In this document: positions 3,928 to 23,134 of the stretch, piece by piece
How positions within the stretch are numbered: position 1 is the stretch's first letter
Layout of the letters: each line of letters starts with the position of its first letter
Assembly: GCA_902538225.1 (NCBI GenBank)
Contig: CACBEF010000008.1
Span: forward strand, 1 to 49,320
Source of the DNA: an uncultured Prochlorococcus sp.
GTDB lineage: Bacteria > Cyanobacteriota > Cyanobacteriia > PCC-6307 > Cyanobiaceae
Direction: 5' to 3'
DNA: 49,320 nt
Made by a program: the position numbers and the translations under genes
The notes under the pieces: generated by a model
What the model saw: only the letters and a program-made list of their open reading frames with translations
What the model was told of the DNA's origin: nothing
The model's database searches: none

Positions 3928-5148
3928 TCAACTATTTTTTTTAATGTTTGATCTCTCACTCGCAAGTTCAATAAACCATCTTATGTATTCTTTGGGCCCA
4001 TTTTTAAAAACTAGGTCAAACTTTAATTTATCATAAACATCACTGATCCCAGTTAAACCAGTTTTTTTTGTAGAGGGTCTTTCAACTTCGCCAGAACTAC
4101 TATCTACAAAAATTATTTTATTCTTAATCCCAAATTCATTACCTAATATTTGTATGAATTCTAGAAAAGACCTATCACTGCCTCCTCTCAAATAACATTT
4201 TTCATCATTATTTTTTTTTGATGTGACTGTGTCACCAACTCCTACAATCAAAGGCATATCTTCTTTTTGAATAGTTCTTTTGCATAAATCAATTTTTTCC
4301 GTAACAGAATTTGGAGAGTCTCTAAAATTAAAATTTCTTCCAAAAGGGGCTTTACCAGTTTTATCTGCAATAAATTTATTTAAAAGAAATAAAACTCCAG
4401 AATCTTTAACTGCTCCTTTAATAAGTAATTGTATGTCTGTTGATCCAATATCATCTTGCGAAGAAAGTTTAATTGTTTCTCTATCATTTTTATTACCTAA
4501 ATTTGGTGAAATATGAAGGAAAAATGAGTTTTTGAGGCCTTCGGATTCAGCTTTTAAGATGATTTCATTCATCATCTTTTCAAAACTAATTTGAATAAGC
4601 TTTCTTTTATCAGAATTCTTTTGTATTAAATCAAATAGACTATTAAAATTAATCGTTGGCGAGAAGCGTGTTTCACATATTGATTTTACTGCGTGAAAAT
4701 TGATATCTTCTTGGCTAAGTTCAGGAAAAATATTCTTAACTATGAAATTAAATTTTGGTCTAATTAAACTAGGTACTTTTGATAAAAAATTTAGTTCTTT
4801 TTCTGAGACTCCTTCAAAACTTATTTCACCATTATTGTCTTGATACTCTACTCCACAGGCAGCTAAACCTCTTAAATATAGCTCTTTGTTTTTAGGCTCA
4901 GTAGTGCTCCCTAAACTCCTTTCTATTATTCTGTTAACTCCTCTTGGACCTTCATGTTCACCGCAAGTTAATACAAAGAATTCCTCGGCGAGTTCTTTCG
5001 CTGCATAAATATATTTTGATTCTAACTCTCTAGTCATTGGATCTTTAACTAGAGGGATACAAACTCCGTCAATGTCTTGAATAAATAAGATATTTTTAGA
5101 AGAAATTAAATGTTTTTGTACCTTTAAATTACTTGCCATGTATTCCAT
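3928..5148 (-). CDS. stpA: Glucosylglycerol-3-phosphate phosphatase
   Basis: A 406-residue HAD-like phosphatase. The catalytic D-I-D-G motif is at residues 25-28. Later stretches (F-V-L-T-C-G-E-H, Y-L-R-G-L-A-A-C-G-V, I-V-G-V-G-D-T-V-T-S, R-G-G-S-D-R-S-F-L) closely follow the cyanobacterial StpA/GgpP family as I know it. The enzyme dephosphorylates glucosylglycerol phosphate, the last step in making the salt-stress solute glucosylglycerol. The synthase GgpS, which makes the substrate, is not in this window. The first Met gives M-E-Y-M; the Met four residues in is an equally plausible start. It is divergent from the gene at 5312 across a 163-bp AT-rich gap. Confidence 0.88.
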   Translation of the reverse strand: MEYMASNLKVQKHLISSKNILFIQDIDGVCIPLVKDPMTRELESKYIYAAKELAEEFFVLTCGEHEGPRGVNRIIERSLGSTTEPKNKELYLRGLAACGVEYQDNNGEISFEGVSEKELNFLSKVPSLIRPKFNFIVKNIFPELSQEDINFHAVKSICETRFSPTINFNSLFDLIQKNSDKRKLIQISFEKMMNEIILKAESEGLKNSFFLHISPNLGNKNDRETIKLSSQDDIGSTDIQLLIKGAVKDSGVLFLLNKFIADKTGKAPFGRNFNFRDSPNSVTEKIDLCKRTIQKEDMPLIVGVGDTVTSKKNNDEKCYLRGGSDRSFLEFIQILGNEFGIKNKIIFVDSSSGEVERPSTKKTGLTGISDVYDKLKFDLVFKNGPKEYIRWFIELASERSNIKKNS

Positions 5149-19838: not shown

Positions 19839-19890
19839 AATAAATTCTCAAACTTAATTCATCCTAATTTAAATAAAAAACAGTTTCGAG

Positions 19891-20091
19891 TCACCTGAGT
19901 AGAGAAAGGTACCATTGCCCGATAACTATAATCAATATTGTAAGAACAAAAGGGAAAGCAGGATATCGTGTTTGAAAATTAGCAGGTGGCCAAGGAGACC
20001 AAGATATTAATCTTCCTTGAGGTTCATTTGAAATAACTTTTTTTTTCGATTTTTTGGATATTAAATTATCTTTGGCAAATCCTTTACTCAT
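19891..20091 (-). CDS. Small single-span membrane protein
   Basis: The 66-residue protein has a Lys-rich N-terminus (K-K-S-K-K-K), a Pro/Trp-rich middle (S-W-S-P-W-P-P-A-N-F) and one hydrophobic helix near the C-terminus (about residues 46-63). It was not recognised, but the composition resembles small thylakoid or inner-membrane proteins conserved among cyanobacteria. It lies between the 194-residue membrane protein and tRNA-Ser. Confidence 0.6.
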   Translation of the reverse strand: MSKGFAKDNLISKKSKKKVISNEPQGRLISWSPWPPANFQTRYPAFPFVLTILIIVIGQWYLSLLR

Positions 20092-20165
20092 AATCTAAAT
20101 AAAATTTATCCTAACAAGAACGTTTCAAAAGGGCGTTTATATTATTCAGTTCTTTCTATTTGAAC

Positions 20166-20251
20166 GGAGGGGGTGGGATTCGAACCCACGGTGCCCTTGC
20201 AGACACGCTAGTTTTCAAGACTAGAGCCTTAAACCACTCGACCACCCCTCC
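20166..20251 (-). tRNA. tRNA-Ser (UGA anticodon)
   Basis: Read on the minus strand, a perfect seven-base-pair acceptor stem (GGAGGGG with CCCCTCC) encloses a D arm, an anticodon stem CTAGT/ACTAG with loop CTTGAAA (anticodon TGA), a long variable arm typical of tRNA-Ser, and a T arm with GTTCGAATC. The length is 86 nt. The 3' CCA is not encoded. The 5' half is repeated at 21614-21659, so this gene marks one edge of an integrated element. Confidence 0.97.
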
Positions 20252-20370
20252 AAAAATGCGAGTATCAAGTTTTACTCACCTATCATTATAGCAAAGGGAA
20301 TTAACGGTCTAAATATTCCTTGATTGTCTATATAAATAAATAAGATTGCAACTATATAGTTTATTGAAAG

Positions 20371-21276
20371 TTAATTAAACTTTTTTGAAAATAGATTTTT
20401 GATCTTTTTTTTAATTAAATAAACTTTCAAAATTCTAAATGAGGCAAACATTTTTACAAAAATCAAAAATTGAATTTTTGCTAAATATTTATTCAAATTA
20501 AATATTCTAAAAAGAAAAAACCTCTGGAATAATGTTAAAACATAATTTAATTCAACATTGAATTCAGATAATTTTTTATTGACATGCAAAGAATTGGGTT
20601 CTTTATTAATTCTTAGATAAATTAAATTATCAATTTTTAATTTATCTGAGGGTTCAAGATTTTTACAAATATTATTTATTAAGATCTTTCCTGGGAAATC
20701 TTTAGTAAATTCTTGCATTGAGTATTTTATTAATTTAACTTTTAAGGTCCTGTTGAATAATTCAAAATATTTATGATAATCAAAAATAAATATCCATTTA
20801 GTCTTTTCGTTACCTGTAGAATAATATCCTTTTTTTAATATTTGATTTGCCATTAATTTATAGTTAGTCACGATATTATGTTTTGAAAGTTCACTATATA
20901 GAGATTCGAAATATGAAAATTGATCTCTCGTACAGACATGCCACTCTATGTCATATATTTTAAATTTATTTGCAATCGTTACTAACTCTTTTGCAAGGGA
21001 AGATTCTTTTAAATAATATTCGAAATCTTCAGATGAAAATAAAATAATACTGTTATCTTTAAGCAATTTCTTAGCCTTTTTTAGTGAATATGTAAAAAGT
21101 GAAAAATTATTATTTATTACTTCGTGAGCAACTCTGTGATGACCTGGACCTTCAAAATTTTCATAAGTTGGATAATACAACCCAAATTTTTCAAGGTTAT
21201 TCTTCTCTTTAAATATTAGTGATTGAAAACTTGTAGTAGCTGTTTTATGCAATCCTATATGAAAAACTATTTTCAT
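20371..21276 (-). CDS. Sulfotransferase-like protein (island cargo)
   Basis: The 301-residue protein begins with H-I-G-L-H-K-T-A-T-T-S (residues 6-16), which matches the 5'-phosphosulfate-binding loop of PAPS-dependent sulfotransferases (G-x-x-K-(T/S)-G/A-T-T). A plausible second family segment, I-I-L-F-S-S-E-D-F, lies at about 77-85. The C-terminal third is very Phe/Lys-rich and less conserved in look. Such enzymes often decorate cell-surface glycans and are common in genomic islands. The gene is more AT-rich by eye than the core genes around it, and it lies between the two tRNA-Ser copies. The actual substrate is unknown. Confidence 0.65.
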   Translation of the reverse strand: MKIVFHIGLHKTATTSFQSLIFKEKNNLEKFGLYYPTYENFEGPGHHRVAHEVINNNFSLFTYSLKKAKKLLKDNSIILFSSEDFEYYLKESSLAKELVTIANKFKIYDIEWHVCTRDQFSYFESLYSELSKHNIVTNYKLMANQILKKGYYSTGNEKTKWIFIFDYHKYFELFNRTLKVKLIKYSMQEFTKDFPGKILINNICKNLEPSDKLKIDNLIYLRINKEPNSLHVNKKLSEFNVELNYVLTLFQRFFLFRIFNLNKYLAKIQFLIFVKMFASFRILKVYLIKKKIKNLFSKKFN

Positions 21277-21613
21277 TAATTAATTAAAATAGAAGAATGG
21301 ATAATCAAACTTTAGTTTAAGGAGTAAGATATTAAATGTTCAACTTGAGATGTTTAATATAATATTTGCGTCAATTGGATTTTTCAAGAAAAATACTTCA
21401 ACTGTATACACCTCAAGAATGAAATCTACTGGTGCAAGCTAAAAAATTAGATAGTTCTTGTCCTGAGGACTAGAGTCCTAAACAAGTTTAGAAAGTGGCA
21501 ACATATTGGCAACGCTATGGAGCTATAGCAGTTTTATGATATTTTGAGACTTAATAAGAAGATAGTTATATTAGTTGTTCTTGAGGATTATATTTTTTCT
21601 TCTTAAAATAGTT
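21277..21613. other. Non-coding part of the island, possible decayed gene
   Basis: No intact gene. An ATG at 21336 follows a good AAGGAG site, but its frame meets TAA after eight codons. The same frame then continues to 21539 with five stops in total; pieces such as K-V-A-T-Y-W-Q-R-Y-G-A-I-A-V-L look protein-like. The number of stops is about that expected by chance, so this is weak evidence for a pseudogene. The palindrome AGGACTAGAGTCCT (21466-21479) and a near-repeat TGGCAACATAT/TGGCAACGCTAT (about 21497-21519) lie here too. Confidence 0.35.
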
Positions 21614-21659
21614 ACGATAGTTTTCAAGACTAGAGCCTTAAACCACTCGACCACCACTC
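21614..21659 (-). repeat. Partial tRNA-Ser copy (att-site remnant)
   Basis: Forty-four of 46 bases match tRNA-Ser positions 20205-20250, including a run of 38 identical bases (21618-21655). It contains the anticodon loop but lacks the variable and T arms and the 3' acceptor strand, so it cannot make a tRNA. The long gap that follows, 21660-21874, shows no gene. Confidence 0.85.
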
Positions 21660-21874
21660 TCAAGGGTTCTTCAGTTTTATTGAAATAAAAACTATAACAT
21701 AACAAATTAGTCACAGTCTATAAATTCAAAGATTTAAAAATTATTTCAAGAAACTAGTTTGAGATAGGAATTTTTATTAATAATCATGAGTTAAACCGTT
21801 TTAACAATCTATCATTAGTCAAATCTAGTCCACAAAATGTGTTCACAAAAAATCTAGTTTGCTTTCAAAAAAAA

Positions 21875-22024
21875 TCACCCAAAGTTGACATTTTGTTGAA
21901 ATAAACCAAATAAGTTATTCCCAACTATGGCAGCGATTATTAAAACGAAGGCAACTATGGCGAAAAGAGCACTTACATCTTTTATGTTATAGGGTGCTTT
22001 AAATAAAGGTTTTTGGTCTGCCAT
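21875..22024 (-). CDS. 49-residue single-span membrane protein
   Basis: A short gene that length filters would miss. The ATG at 22024 begins M-A-D-Q-K-P-L-F-K-A-P. A hydrophobic helix runs over about residues 20-38 (A-L-F-A-I-V-A-F-V-L-I-I-A-A-I-V-G), and the protein ends N-V-N-F-G before a TGA. The form (polar N-terminus, one helix, short amphipathic tail) is that of small photosystem or thylakoid proteins, but I cannot match it to a named subunit. It lies just outside the tRNA island. Confidence 0.6.
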   Translation of the reverse strand: MADQKPLFKAPYNIKDVSALFAIVAFVLIIAAIVGNNLFGLFQQNVNFG

Positions 22025-22116
22025 GGTTATCTAAATATATAAATGCAATTGAATCATATTATTTTAATGCATTTGAGAAGTATTAAGTTATTTTTTTAGT
22101 CTAAGAATGGATAATA

Positions 22117-22141
22117 AAAAAGCCACTAAAAGTGGCTTTTT
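22117..22141 (-). terminator. Rho-independent terminator, bidirectional form
   Basis: A perfect 11-bp inverted repeat, AAAAAGCCACT / AGTGGCTTTTT, has a 3-nt AAA loop, with T runs on both strands. On the minus strand it ends the DUF4278 transcript, whose stop is at 22182. A 20-bp tandem duplication containing GTTAAATAAACTAG (22152-22165 and 22172-22185) separates the two. Confidence 0.8.
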
Positions 22142-22181
22142 CTATTTAATGGTTAAATAAACTAGTTAATTGTTAAATAAA

Positions 22182-22283
22182 CTAGCTTGTGTAAGCTTTT
22201 CCTCTATAAGTTAGTTCATTGTGCTGCTTTTTAGCTGCTTCTTTGTTCTGGACGTACTTTTGTCCTCTGTAAATTAGAGTCAT
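22182..22283 (-). CDS. DUF4278-type small peptide
   Basis: A 33-residue gene. The protein starts M-T-L-I-Y-R-G-Q-K-Y and repeats the motif later as L-T-Y-R-G-K-A-Y before the stop. This (L-x-Y-R-G-x-x-Y) is the signature of the DUF4278 family, very common as short genes in marine picocyanobacteria. Function is unknown. A GGAG ribosome-binding site is 8 nt before the ATG, inside a predicted hairpin. The terminator at 22117-22141 follows. Confidence 0.78.
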   Translation of the reverse strand: MTLIYRGQKYVQNKEAAKKQHNELTYRGKAYTS

Positions 22284-22286
22284 TTT

Positions 22287-22380
22287 TTAAGCTCCGGTTT
22301 CGCTTAAGTCCCCGTTCCATGGCTTAAGTCGATTTGCGGCTTGCTATACGCAAGTTGAACGTTTTGGTAGCGGTTGCTAC
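22287..22380 (-). ncRNA. Structured 5' leader or small RNA upstream of the DUF4278 gene
   Basis: This stretch is clearly richer in G and C than the surrounding DNA. Read on the minus strand it has three simple hairpins: GTAGC/GCTAC with an AACC loop (22367-22380), CTTGC/GCAAG (22340-22354) and TTAAGC/GCTTAA (22287-22307). The last holds the GGAG ribosome-binding site. It may be a translation-controlling leader or a separate small RNA. I do not recognise it as a known Yfr RNA. The rest of the gap, 22381-22588, is AT-rich with no clear gene. Confidence 0.45.
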
Positions 22381-22588
22381 AAATTTATAATATCATCCAT
22401 TGAAATTATTTGTCTAGGTTTTTAATAAATAAACTTAATAGATTAATGATAAATTAGGTTTCTGATAAAAATATTTATCATAATCCCGGCGTAATTGCTT
22501 ACAGGTTACATTTTGTTCGTTTTTGAGATGTATTTTTTATTTAATGAACTTTTAAATGTAAAATTCTTAAGATTATAAAATTTGTTTT

Positions 22589-22783
22589 ATGTTTTCTAGA
22601 AGCAAAAAACCTACAGTAAAAAAATCTGCAATAGTTGAAGAGACTCCATTATTTGCTCAATTATTACCATTCGCAAACAAAATGAATGATAAGGTTCAAT
22701 TGGTAAATGCTTTGGCTTTTACTTTTATTATGGGATTCTCAATTTTTGGAATTGCTTTATGGAAATTATCAGGGCTGACCTAA
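22589..22783 (+). CDS. Small single-span membrane protein, 64 residues
   Basis: The protein starts M-F-S-R-S-K-K-P with a basic N-terminus, then a mixed segment, then one hydrophobic helix (about residues 42-60, A-L-A-F-T-F-I-M-G-F-S-I-F-G). A full-length frame, a start ATG and a basic, inside-positive head make a real gene likely. No family was recognised. Its stop overlaps the convergent 88-residue gene by 4 bp. Confidence 0.6.
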   Translation: MFSRSKKPTVKKSAIVEETPLFAQLLPFANKMNDKVQLVNALAFTFIMGFSIFGIALWKLSGLT

Positions 22784-23046
22784 TTATTTAATTTTTGCAA
22801 TGCATTAATTTTTGATTCTTTGTTTTCAATTATCGTTATCAACCATCTAGAGGCTAGACCTCTGGATATTGATCTATTTTTTAGAAATCTACATATATAT
22901 ACGTGTAGATTTTTTTCGTTTTTGGAGTTAAATTTTTCCTCAAAAGCTAAGATATCCTCTTCTGACGTTCTTTTTCTTAACTCGTCCACTAATGCATGAC
23001 TAGAGGAATCATTAAAAAAGTTCCCAATATTTAAGCTTAATGTCAT
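22780..23046 (-). CDS. Hypothetical protein, 88 residues
   Basis: A small, mostly helical, charged soluble protein with no signal or membrane segment. Features are S-S-S-H-A-L-V-D-E-L near the start and H-V-Y-I-C-R-F-L in the middle. The family was not recognised. It is convergent with the 64-residue gene and is 88 bp upstream of the nrdJ stop on the same strand. Confidence 0.55.
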   Translation of the reverse strand: MTLSLNIGNFFNDSSSHALVDELRKRTSEEDILAFEEKFNSKNEKNLHVYICRFLKNRSISRGLASRWLITIIENKESKINALQKLNN

Positions 23047-23134
23047 AAATAATTTATGTCCCTATTTAAGAGGTAGCCATAAATTAAATTTTTAAAAACT
23101 AATTTATATTTTTTATTTACAAATAATTCAAAAT

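Follow-up and report, generated by a model that had tools for sequence, protein, structure and literature searches.

Part of the tRNA-Ser gene in the DNA analysed here (a 49,320-nt stretch of an uncultured Prochlorococcus sp., contig CACBEF010000008.1, positions 1 to 49,320, referred to below as the window) recurs some 1.4 kb away, with a single protein-coding gene in between. This raises the question as to whether the interval entered the chromosome by site-specific recombination at the tRNA and, if so, what kind of element it represents. An initial annotation made from the letters alone suggested that it may be a stripped tycheposon-like element whose integrase has gone. To answer this question we compared the locus with the corresponding site in other genomes of the genus.

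A hybrid tRNA-Ser(UGA) gene and its displaced 5' half

The tRNA-Ser(UGA) gene, detected with ARAGORN, occupies 20164..20252 on the minus strand. The direct repeat described in the initial annotation is plainly visible in the alignment: two 46-bp copies, 20205-20250 and 21614-21659, lie 1409 bp apart and differ by exactly two mismatches. It is also correct that the repeat corresponds to the 5' half of the tRNA, from the anticodon stem to the 5' end, and that the insert sits on the tRNA's 5' side. A 40-bp probe allowed up to 12 mismatches matched the plus strand of the window only twice (0 and 3 mismatches), and none of 88 site stretches with the tRNA (621 kb), when reversed as a control, gave a match. 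The proximal copy (20205..20250), which runs from the anticodon stem-loop to the tRNA 5' end, is perfect and is followed by a distinct upstream region of its own; the distal copy (21614..21659) continues into the ancestral upstream region of the tRNA. This arrangement indicates that the 5' half of the working tRNA and its promoter-like site are element-borne. As judged from the alignment of the junctions with empty sites, the tRNA gene is a hybrid of a chromosomal 3' half and a 5' half from the inserted element, and the distal copy is the displaced, decaying 5' half of the original gene.

Both copies are followed by a promoter-like site on the minus strand. The element-borne site at 20285..20313 reads TTTAGA, 17 nt, TATAAT, with TG before, and the displaced original at 21691..21720 reads TAGACT, 18 nt, TATAGT, again with TG before; the TATAGT box of the latter is also found in empty sites. 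A consensus match alone proves nothing, since the region holds 13 promoter-like sites compared with 10.6 +/- 3.8 in shuffles. Position is more telling. At 75 % identity the leaders of 88 genomes can be grouped into 14 classes, 13 of which have a TATAAT-like box (up to one mismatch) 26-32 nt from the tRNA; dinucleotide shuffles give 2.1 +/- 1.3 such classes, and 7 at most in 500. We infer that the element-borne site acts as the promoter of the present tRNA.

The insert and its cargo

The insert has a G+C content of 24 %, against 31 % for the window. Its left end (20253..20325) resembles, by z comparison, the left ends of the recombinase-bearing class A elements discussed below. The leader between the tRNA and the cargo ORF measures 118 bp, and the cargo gene itself (20371..21276, minus strand) encodes 301 aa. 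The ~340 bp between the cargo ORF and the distal copy hold no ORF of at least 50 aa; they comprise ~210 bp that are likewise free of such ORFs and a right end (21488..21613) that is common to the insertions in G074 and G073 (~86-87 % identity over 130-135 bp), where it accompanies different cargo. A palindrome resembling the anticodon stem-loop was noted by eye at 21458-21480, with similar ones in G009, G050, G102 and G148; in several right ends it is positioned roughly 100-160 bp inside. No recombinase is encoded in the window's insert, the sole ORF of at least 50 aa having no recombinase match.

The initial annotation had the cargo as one sulfotransferase-like gene. The single ORF stands, and the sulfotransferase identity has to be held more loosely. 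The 301-aa protein gave no sulfotransferase match in Pfam, PHROG or NCBIfam and nothing convincing in a PDB sequence search, and its single-sequence structure prediction, with a mean pLDDT of 40, is uninformative. Among 150 other genomes of the genus, many of them incomplete, it has no close relative and two weak partial matches with 27-29 % identity; no relatives were found in phage records, IMG/VR or GTDB contigs, the last two of which reach close relatives only. Both weak relatives have sub-cut-off matches to Pfam Sulfotransfer_3 (E 0.033 and 0.022), and all three proteins have an N-terminal HxGxHxTxTT motif in common. On the basis of these relatives and the motif, it is plausible that the cargo is a sulfotransferase.

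The site is empty in some relatives and variably occupied in others

The initial annotation predicted that relatives without the element would have the tRNA joined directly to the sequence that follows 21659. A search with window 19880-23050 produced matches in 147 of 151 genus genomes (the window's own included), from which 100 stretches were merged to a site set of 89 genomes plus the window. The full tRNA is present in 88 of these 90, being absent from G052 and G088. Occupancy was counted for the 62 of these 88 that have the tRNA and the nearest right-flank piece on one stretch, leaving out the other 26, and a site was called empty when the net length difference was at most 3 bp. By this measure, 17 of the 62 sites are empty, with the tRNA joining the homologue of window 21660 onward just as predicted. 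The 45 occupied sites (window included) hold 0.16-39.8 kb; four have 163-165 bp extra and 41, among them the window, 0.4-39.8 kb. At the base level, the 5' end of the tRNA in the empty sites of G047 and G146 is joined directly to the sequence following the window's distal copy. The G132 site was rejected as an empty site: the junction is the same, but the sequence upstream soon ceases to resemble the window's flank, and the site serves as a junction example only, outside the empty count. Its upstream region (L117) has a tandem TTTAGTCCACAA repeat, like an arm site. A second survey used named GTDB contigs (the best 80 of 149 loci, with titles naming Prochlorococcus or uncultured Synechococcaceae), and this set partly overlaps the 62 sites. 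The full tRNA is present in 69 of the 80, and 20 of the 40 assessable loci are empty.

With 17 of 62 sites empty, only the two weak cargo matches in 150 other genomes (many of them incomplete) and no chance matches of this quality in 621 kb of reversed sequence, we reject the reading of the interval as ordinary core sequence, or of the repeat as a coincidence, which we consider next to impossible; one of the outcomes that the initial annotation named as fatal to its proposal, fixed core content in all relatives, is excluded by the same cargo matches. The flank beyond the distal copy is less simple. Window 21660..21868 is the upstream region of the ancestral tRNA as it occurs in empty sites, and it is also homologous to class D left ends (z 4.3, 6.0 and 11.5 for three of them, 2.8 for the fourth); for the tRNA upstream region of empty sites, z against class D left ends reaches 14.1. 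Since three of the four class D left ends clearly match, we dropped the description of 21660-21868 as simple ancestral intergenic DNA. The 'empty' sites may hold the oldest left-end remnant, or elements may have taken up sequence from the host.

To what extent are the site states inherited? A flank tree could be made for the 32 of 90 genomes with both flanks long enough; many of its forks are weak and the states were labelled by hand, G029 being labelled empty, yet with 597 bp of extra DNA further out. On this tree the site states need at least 14 changes, compared with 17.9 for shuffled labels, and one of 200 shuffles was as low as 14. The states are therefore partly inherited. The changes themselves speak for the history of entry by recombination that we prefer below; the partial inheritance counts against it. 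Empty and class B states are clustered, and cassette and recombinase states show no clustering. Vertical inheritance alone was rejected, as it misfits the tree even though states are partly clustered.

Element ends form classes and bound very small units

The left leaders and the sequences preceding distal copies form classes, many with a short direct-repeat pair like recombinase arm sites, and in several classes the arm-like motif agrees between left and right end (both by eye). Against four class A left ends (G013, G050, G102 and G148), all of which sit before recombinase genes, the left end of the window scores z 8.9-13.2, compared with z -0.9 to 2.3 for five other left ends. Its right end is of the GGCAAC class and contains an arm-type-like repeat pair, GTGGCAAC/TTGGCAAC, at 21495..21513, a putative binding site; the motif is also found in the left end of G042. 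No arm-like repeats were seen by eye in the window's left end. Of the features of class A elements, the window unit has the left end adjoining the tRNA 5' end, and neither arm-like left repeats nor a matching right end. Such a combination is not confined to the window: G148 has a class A left end and a right end unlike those of G102 and G050.

Second copies of the 5' half are present in 35 of 88 genomes, window included. Among the 41 copy spacings, 21 are exactly 166 or 167 bp, 12 (including the window) fall at 0.66-1.41 kb, and eight are larger. Eleven units of 656-1252 bp bounded by 5'-half copies occur in ten other genomes (G043 has two), and no recombinase was found in any of them. The class C units of G009, G017, G053 and G150 have similar ends around different genes, and G043, G055 and G057 have one gene in common. 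These observations, together with the window-type right ends next to other cargo in G074 and G073, argue for an alternative in which the window unit is no relic. It would instead be a complete non-autonomous single-gene cassette with two recombinase-recognised ends, mobilised in trans and belonging to a population of such cassettes. That the window's ends are of different classes, with arm-like repeats (by eye) at the right end only, that an ORF-less stretch of ~210 bp precedes the right end, and that the distal repeat is decaying all speak against a complete cassette, and we regard it as a possibility that falls somewhat short of an even chance.

The 166-bp unit, class B, combines a single tRNA 5' half with a leader and with repeats resembling recombinase arms. 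It is present in 39 of 151 genomes, once each and in some of them partial, and for 37 of the 39 copies the contig also carries this tRNA or its flanks (G132 and G096 left out). The right half of the unit resembles class A right ends, with B2 scoring z 11.5 against G102 and 9.1 against G050, and B1 scoring 12.5 against G050 and 5.4 against G102, which amounts to a subtype agreement with the two class A right ends. There is no match between this right half and the G148 right end (z -0.7 and -0.9), and the left 48 bases of the unit fit class A leaders poorly and fit G002, and G005 (B2) or G042 (B1), better; both points speak against deriving it simply from class A. An interpretation of the 166-bp unit as a random scar was dropped in view of the 21 spacings of 166 or 167 bp and the similarity of its right half to class A right ends. 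The class B unit of G007 is precisely inserted, in a clade otherwise made up of empty sites. Against mobility of the small units, no excision product is known and tree support is often weak.

A divergent tyrosine recombinase adjoins the same tRNA in relatives

The initial annotation suggested looking in relatives for a tyrosine recombinase beside this tRNA, and one is indeed found on the 5' side in many genomes. In 17 site stretches with the full tRNA, a tyrosine recombinase gene adjoins the leader and points away from the tRNA; these genes encode 159-415 aa (the shortest is cut by a contig end) and lie 146-428 bp from the tRNA 5' end. A profile search of 266 genus genomes gave 37 matches with E < 1e-40 in 34 genomes. 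Leaving out two (G244 and G184) from placement, 32 of the 37 lie 5' of a full tRNA-Ser(UGA), including G257 at ~700 bp, two lie beside a 5'-half copy only, and one (G088) lies beside the 3' half. Seven aligned members have invariant R260, K283, R354, H355 and Y386, which we take to be the catalytic set of tyrosine recombinases. The profile of this divergent family matches the XerC-like structure 4a8e with E 1e-4, Pfam did not recognise the two members scanned, and PHROGs gave a weak integrase match. The recovered part of the window's own genome (67.5 % complete) has no match to the family.

The class A recombinase was not found in phage records, and IMG/VR contains it on one contig, L157 (IMGVR_UViG_2667527299_000001). 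L157 includes this tRNA site, with the recombinase on the 3' side, a gene with a VapE-like domain and small cassette-like genes, and it looks like a satellite-type element in a chromosome. Two class A elements contain a small second recombinase of 190-211 aa (G102, oriented 3931-4503; G050, oriented 4342-4977); Pfam clearly recognises the G102 copy as an integrase, and the G050 copy resembles it. Weaker matches to the recombinase profile are widespread, some match being present in 222 of 266 genomes. Among the matches listed these are mostly a homologue of ~386-404 aa with E near 1e-37, for example G109:C1:505109-506233 (L152:2074-3243), which in L152 passes the Pfam integrase cut-off and neighbours a gene that is presumably ferrochelatase-like. 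This homologue is possibly a core gene and a candidate helper in trans.

Where would such a recombinase act? In G088, which has an element on the 3' side, identity to the tRNA extends up to TTTTCAAGAC, just past the anticodon loop, after which comes a recombinase gene of this family. A 3' fragment has been retained in several other genomes, where the complete tRNA lies further inside, and the 5'-side copies begin at the same anticodon-stem position across many genomes. Taken together, these boundaries suggest a crossover within the anticodon loop for both polarities, and in the window the palindromic anticodon stem-loop at 20208..20224 is the candidate crossover region. Further 3'-side insertions at the same tRNA were seen in L046, L064, L065, L087, L121 and others; some end in the anticodon loop and some in the last bases of the tRNA, and these different end points imply that one tRNA serves several insertion types.

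The constant starting position bears on another explanation, in which the 46-bp copy and the cargo were placed by homologous recombination or illegitimate duplication, with no site-specific recombinase involved. Repeats of a tRNA can recombine, and the recovered part of this genome is devoid of the family's recombinase. Set against this are the many genomes in which the copies start at the same anticodon-stem position, ends that are conserved while the cargo differs, recombinase genes at the same place in relatives, and empty sites that are exact. A recombinase-free origin is therefore very unlikely in our view.

A proposed history of the window unit

We consider it likely that an element entered by site-specific recombination at the tRNA and was subsequently reduced to a one-gene remnant of 1.4 kb. 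In the history that we propose, a mobile element would have entered tRNA-Ser(UGA) by means of a divergent tyrosine recombinase like the enzyme encoded next to this tRNA in relatives. With the crossover in the anticodon loop, and with an element carrying its own tRNA 5' half followed by a promoter, the insertion would restore a full tRNA, now with the 5' half and the promoter of the element, pushing away the original 5' half and promoter, which now decay at 21614-21720. The remainder would be a 1.4-kb unit in which a class A left end and a class E right end enclose a single cargo gene. Several points count against this history: neither excision nor a circular form was observed, class E ends were not found with any recombinase, so that they may use another enzyme, and general homologous recombination between tRNA copies could also shuffle cargo.

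The mixed ends need an explanation of their own. A left end of one class combined with a right end of another is the expected product of a deletion across two tandem elements, and the simplest history would have two such elements fused by a deletion that removed any recombinase gene. The unit is perhaps such a collapsed pair. On the other hand, no intermediate of such a collapse was seen, an exchange of ends in a single cassette would account for the unit equally well, and the mixed ends of G148 suggest that end exchange is wider than one collapse would need. The proposal of a stripped tycheposon-like element is supported in outline, both of the checks that it suggested having come out as predicted. 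As the ends belong to two classes, the unit probably arose by collapse or is a non-autonomous cassette, and is less probably a single tycheposon that has lost its integrase. Moreover, since short integrase-less units recur at the site, an integrase need not have been lost from the window unit. In either case it is a non-autonomous, partly decayed derivative, which could move only with a recombinase supplied in trans.

Relation to known tRNA-associated elements

The recombinase of tycheposons is a deep-branching tyrosine recombinase, and tycheposons have further hallmark genes of a mobile lifecycle. The tycheposons of Prochlorococcus are reportedly the subject of Hackl et al., Cell 2023. According to the available portions of PMC10872708, they measure 4-200 kb, sit at one of seven tRNAs and carry the recombinase xerD. 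Likenesses to our locus are the host genus, the tRNA border, the cargo genes, gain and loss and, for related elements at the site, a tyrosine recombinase gene next to the tRNA; the differences are that the window unit is without a recombinase, measures 1.4 kb versus 4-200 kb and has mismatched ends. The window unit has the tRNA border, and it has neither the recombinase, nor the size, nor a second ORF of at least 50 aa. We do not file it as a tycheposon because the recombinase and size are wanting; it is not itself a tycheposon and works like a derivative of one.

The tRNA and tmRNA islands catalogued by Islander are similar in that a regenerated tRNA and a displaced fragment mark the ends, and the parts of that paper at hand describe an anticodon-centred crossover class as common (PMC4383910). 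The window unit has an intact tRNA with a 5' fragment upstream in the same orientation. Islander, however, rejects islands that are smaller than 2 kb or fail an integrase test, on the same parts (PMC4383910), and its range is 2-200 kb; with less than 2 kb and no integrase, the unit would be discarded by these filters. The review PMC8371274 states that bacterial tRNAs rebuilt in this way retain, with rare exceptions, the promoter that they had before, and that an attB at the 5' half is seldom met in bacteria. The archaeal integrases of the pTN3 type described there use the tRNA 5' half as attB and provide a new promoter for the rebuilt tRNA, and in both respects they are like the system described here. 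They differ in that the promoter is the integrase's own, whereas here a separate leader faces the tRNA and the recombinase gene points away, and the hosts are unrelated. Closer in taxonomy are picocyanobacterial integrases located upstream of tRNA-Phe and tRNA-Cys, which have in common with ours the upstream position, the variable islands and the same genera (PMC10187409, in part). They concern other tRNAs, are set apart here by description only, and form, per the authors, a family distinct from tycheposon integrases (same portions of PMC10187409). Neither the 166-bp unit nor 5'-side cassettes at tRNA-Ser(UGA) are reported in the portions at hand of PMC10872708, PMC10187409, PMC11389934, PMC12595487, PMC4383910, PMC8371274, PMC10865867 and PMC2784084. 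The 5'-side tRNA-Ser(UGA) units may be new, a provisional view, and some of these features may have been described before.

Implications for island formation in Prochlorococcus

Few catalogued tRNA islands show 5'-side integration that replaces the tRNA promoter: a 5' fragment is recorded for 159 of the 3919 in PMC4383910. At tRNA-Ser(UGA) such integration is seen again and again, and the relatives include empty, minimal, single-gene and recombinase-bearing sites. From these coexisting states one can follow, one step at a time, how ocean genomic islands are gained, stripped and built up, and the system offers a defined attachment site, a recombinase and a 166-bp candidate substrate for mobility in trans. 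A bolder proposal, which we put forward tentatively and with less than even confidence, is that the tRNA-Ser(UGA) of Prochlorococcus is a docking port for non-autonomous cassettes down to the 166-bp unit, moved in trans and each swapping the tRNA promoter. The mobilisers would be the divergent tyrosine recombinases with matching arm repeats of their own. The promoter swap would follow from entry on the 5' side. If this proposal is true, the site would collect genes much as an integron does and would at the same time switch the expression of the tRNA.
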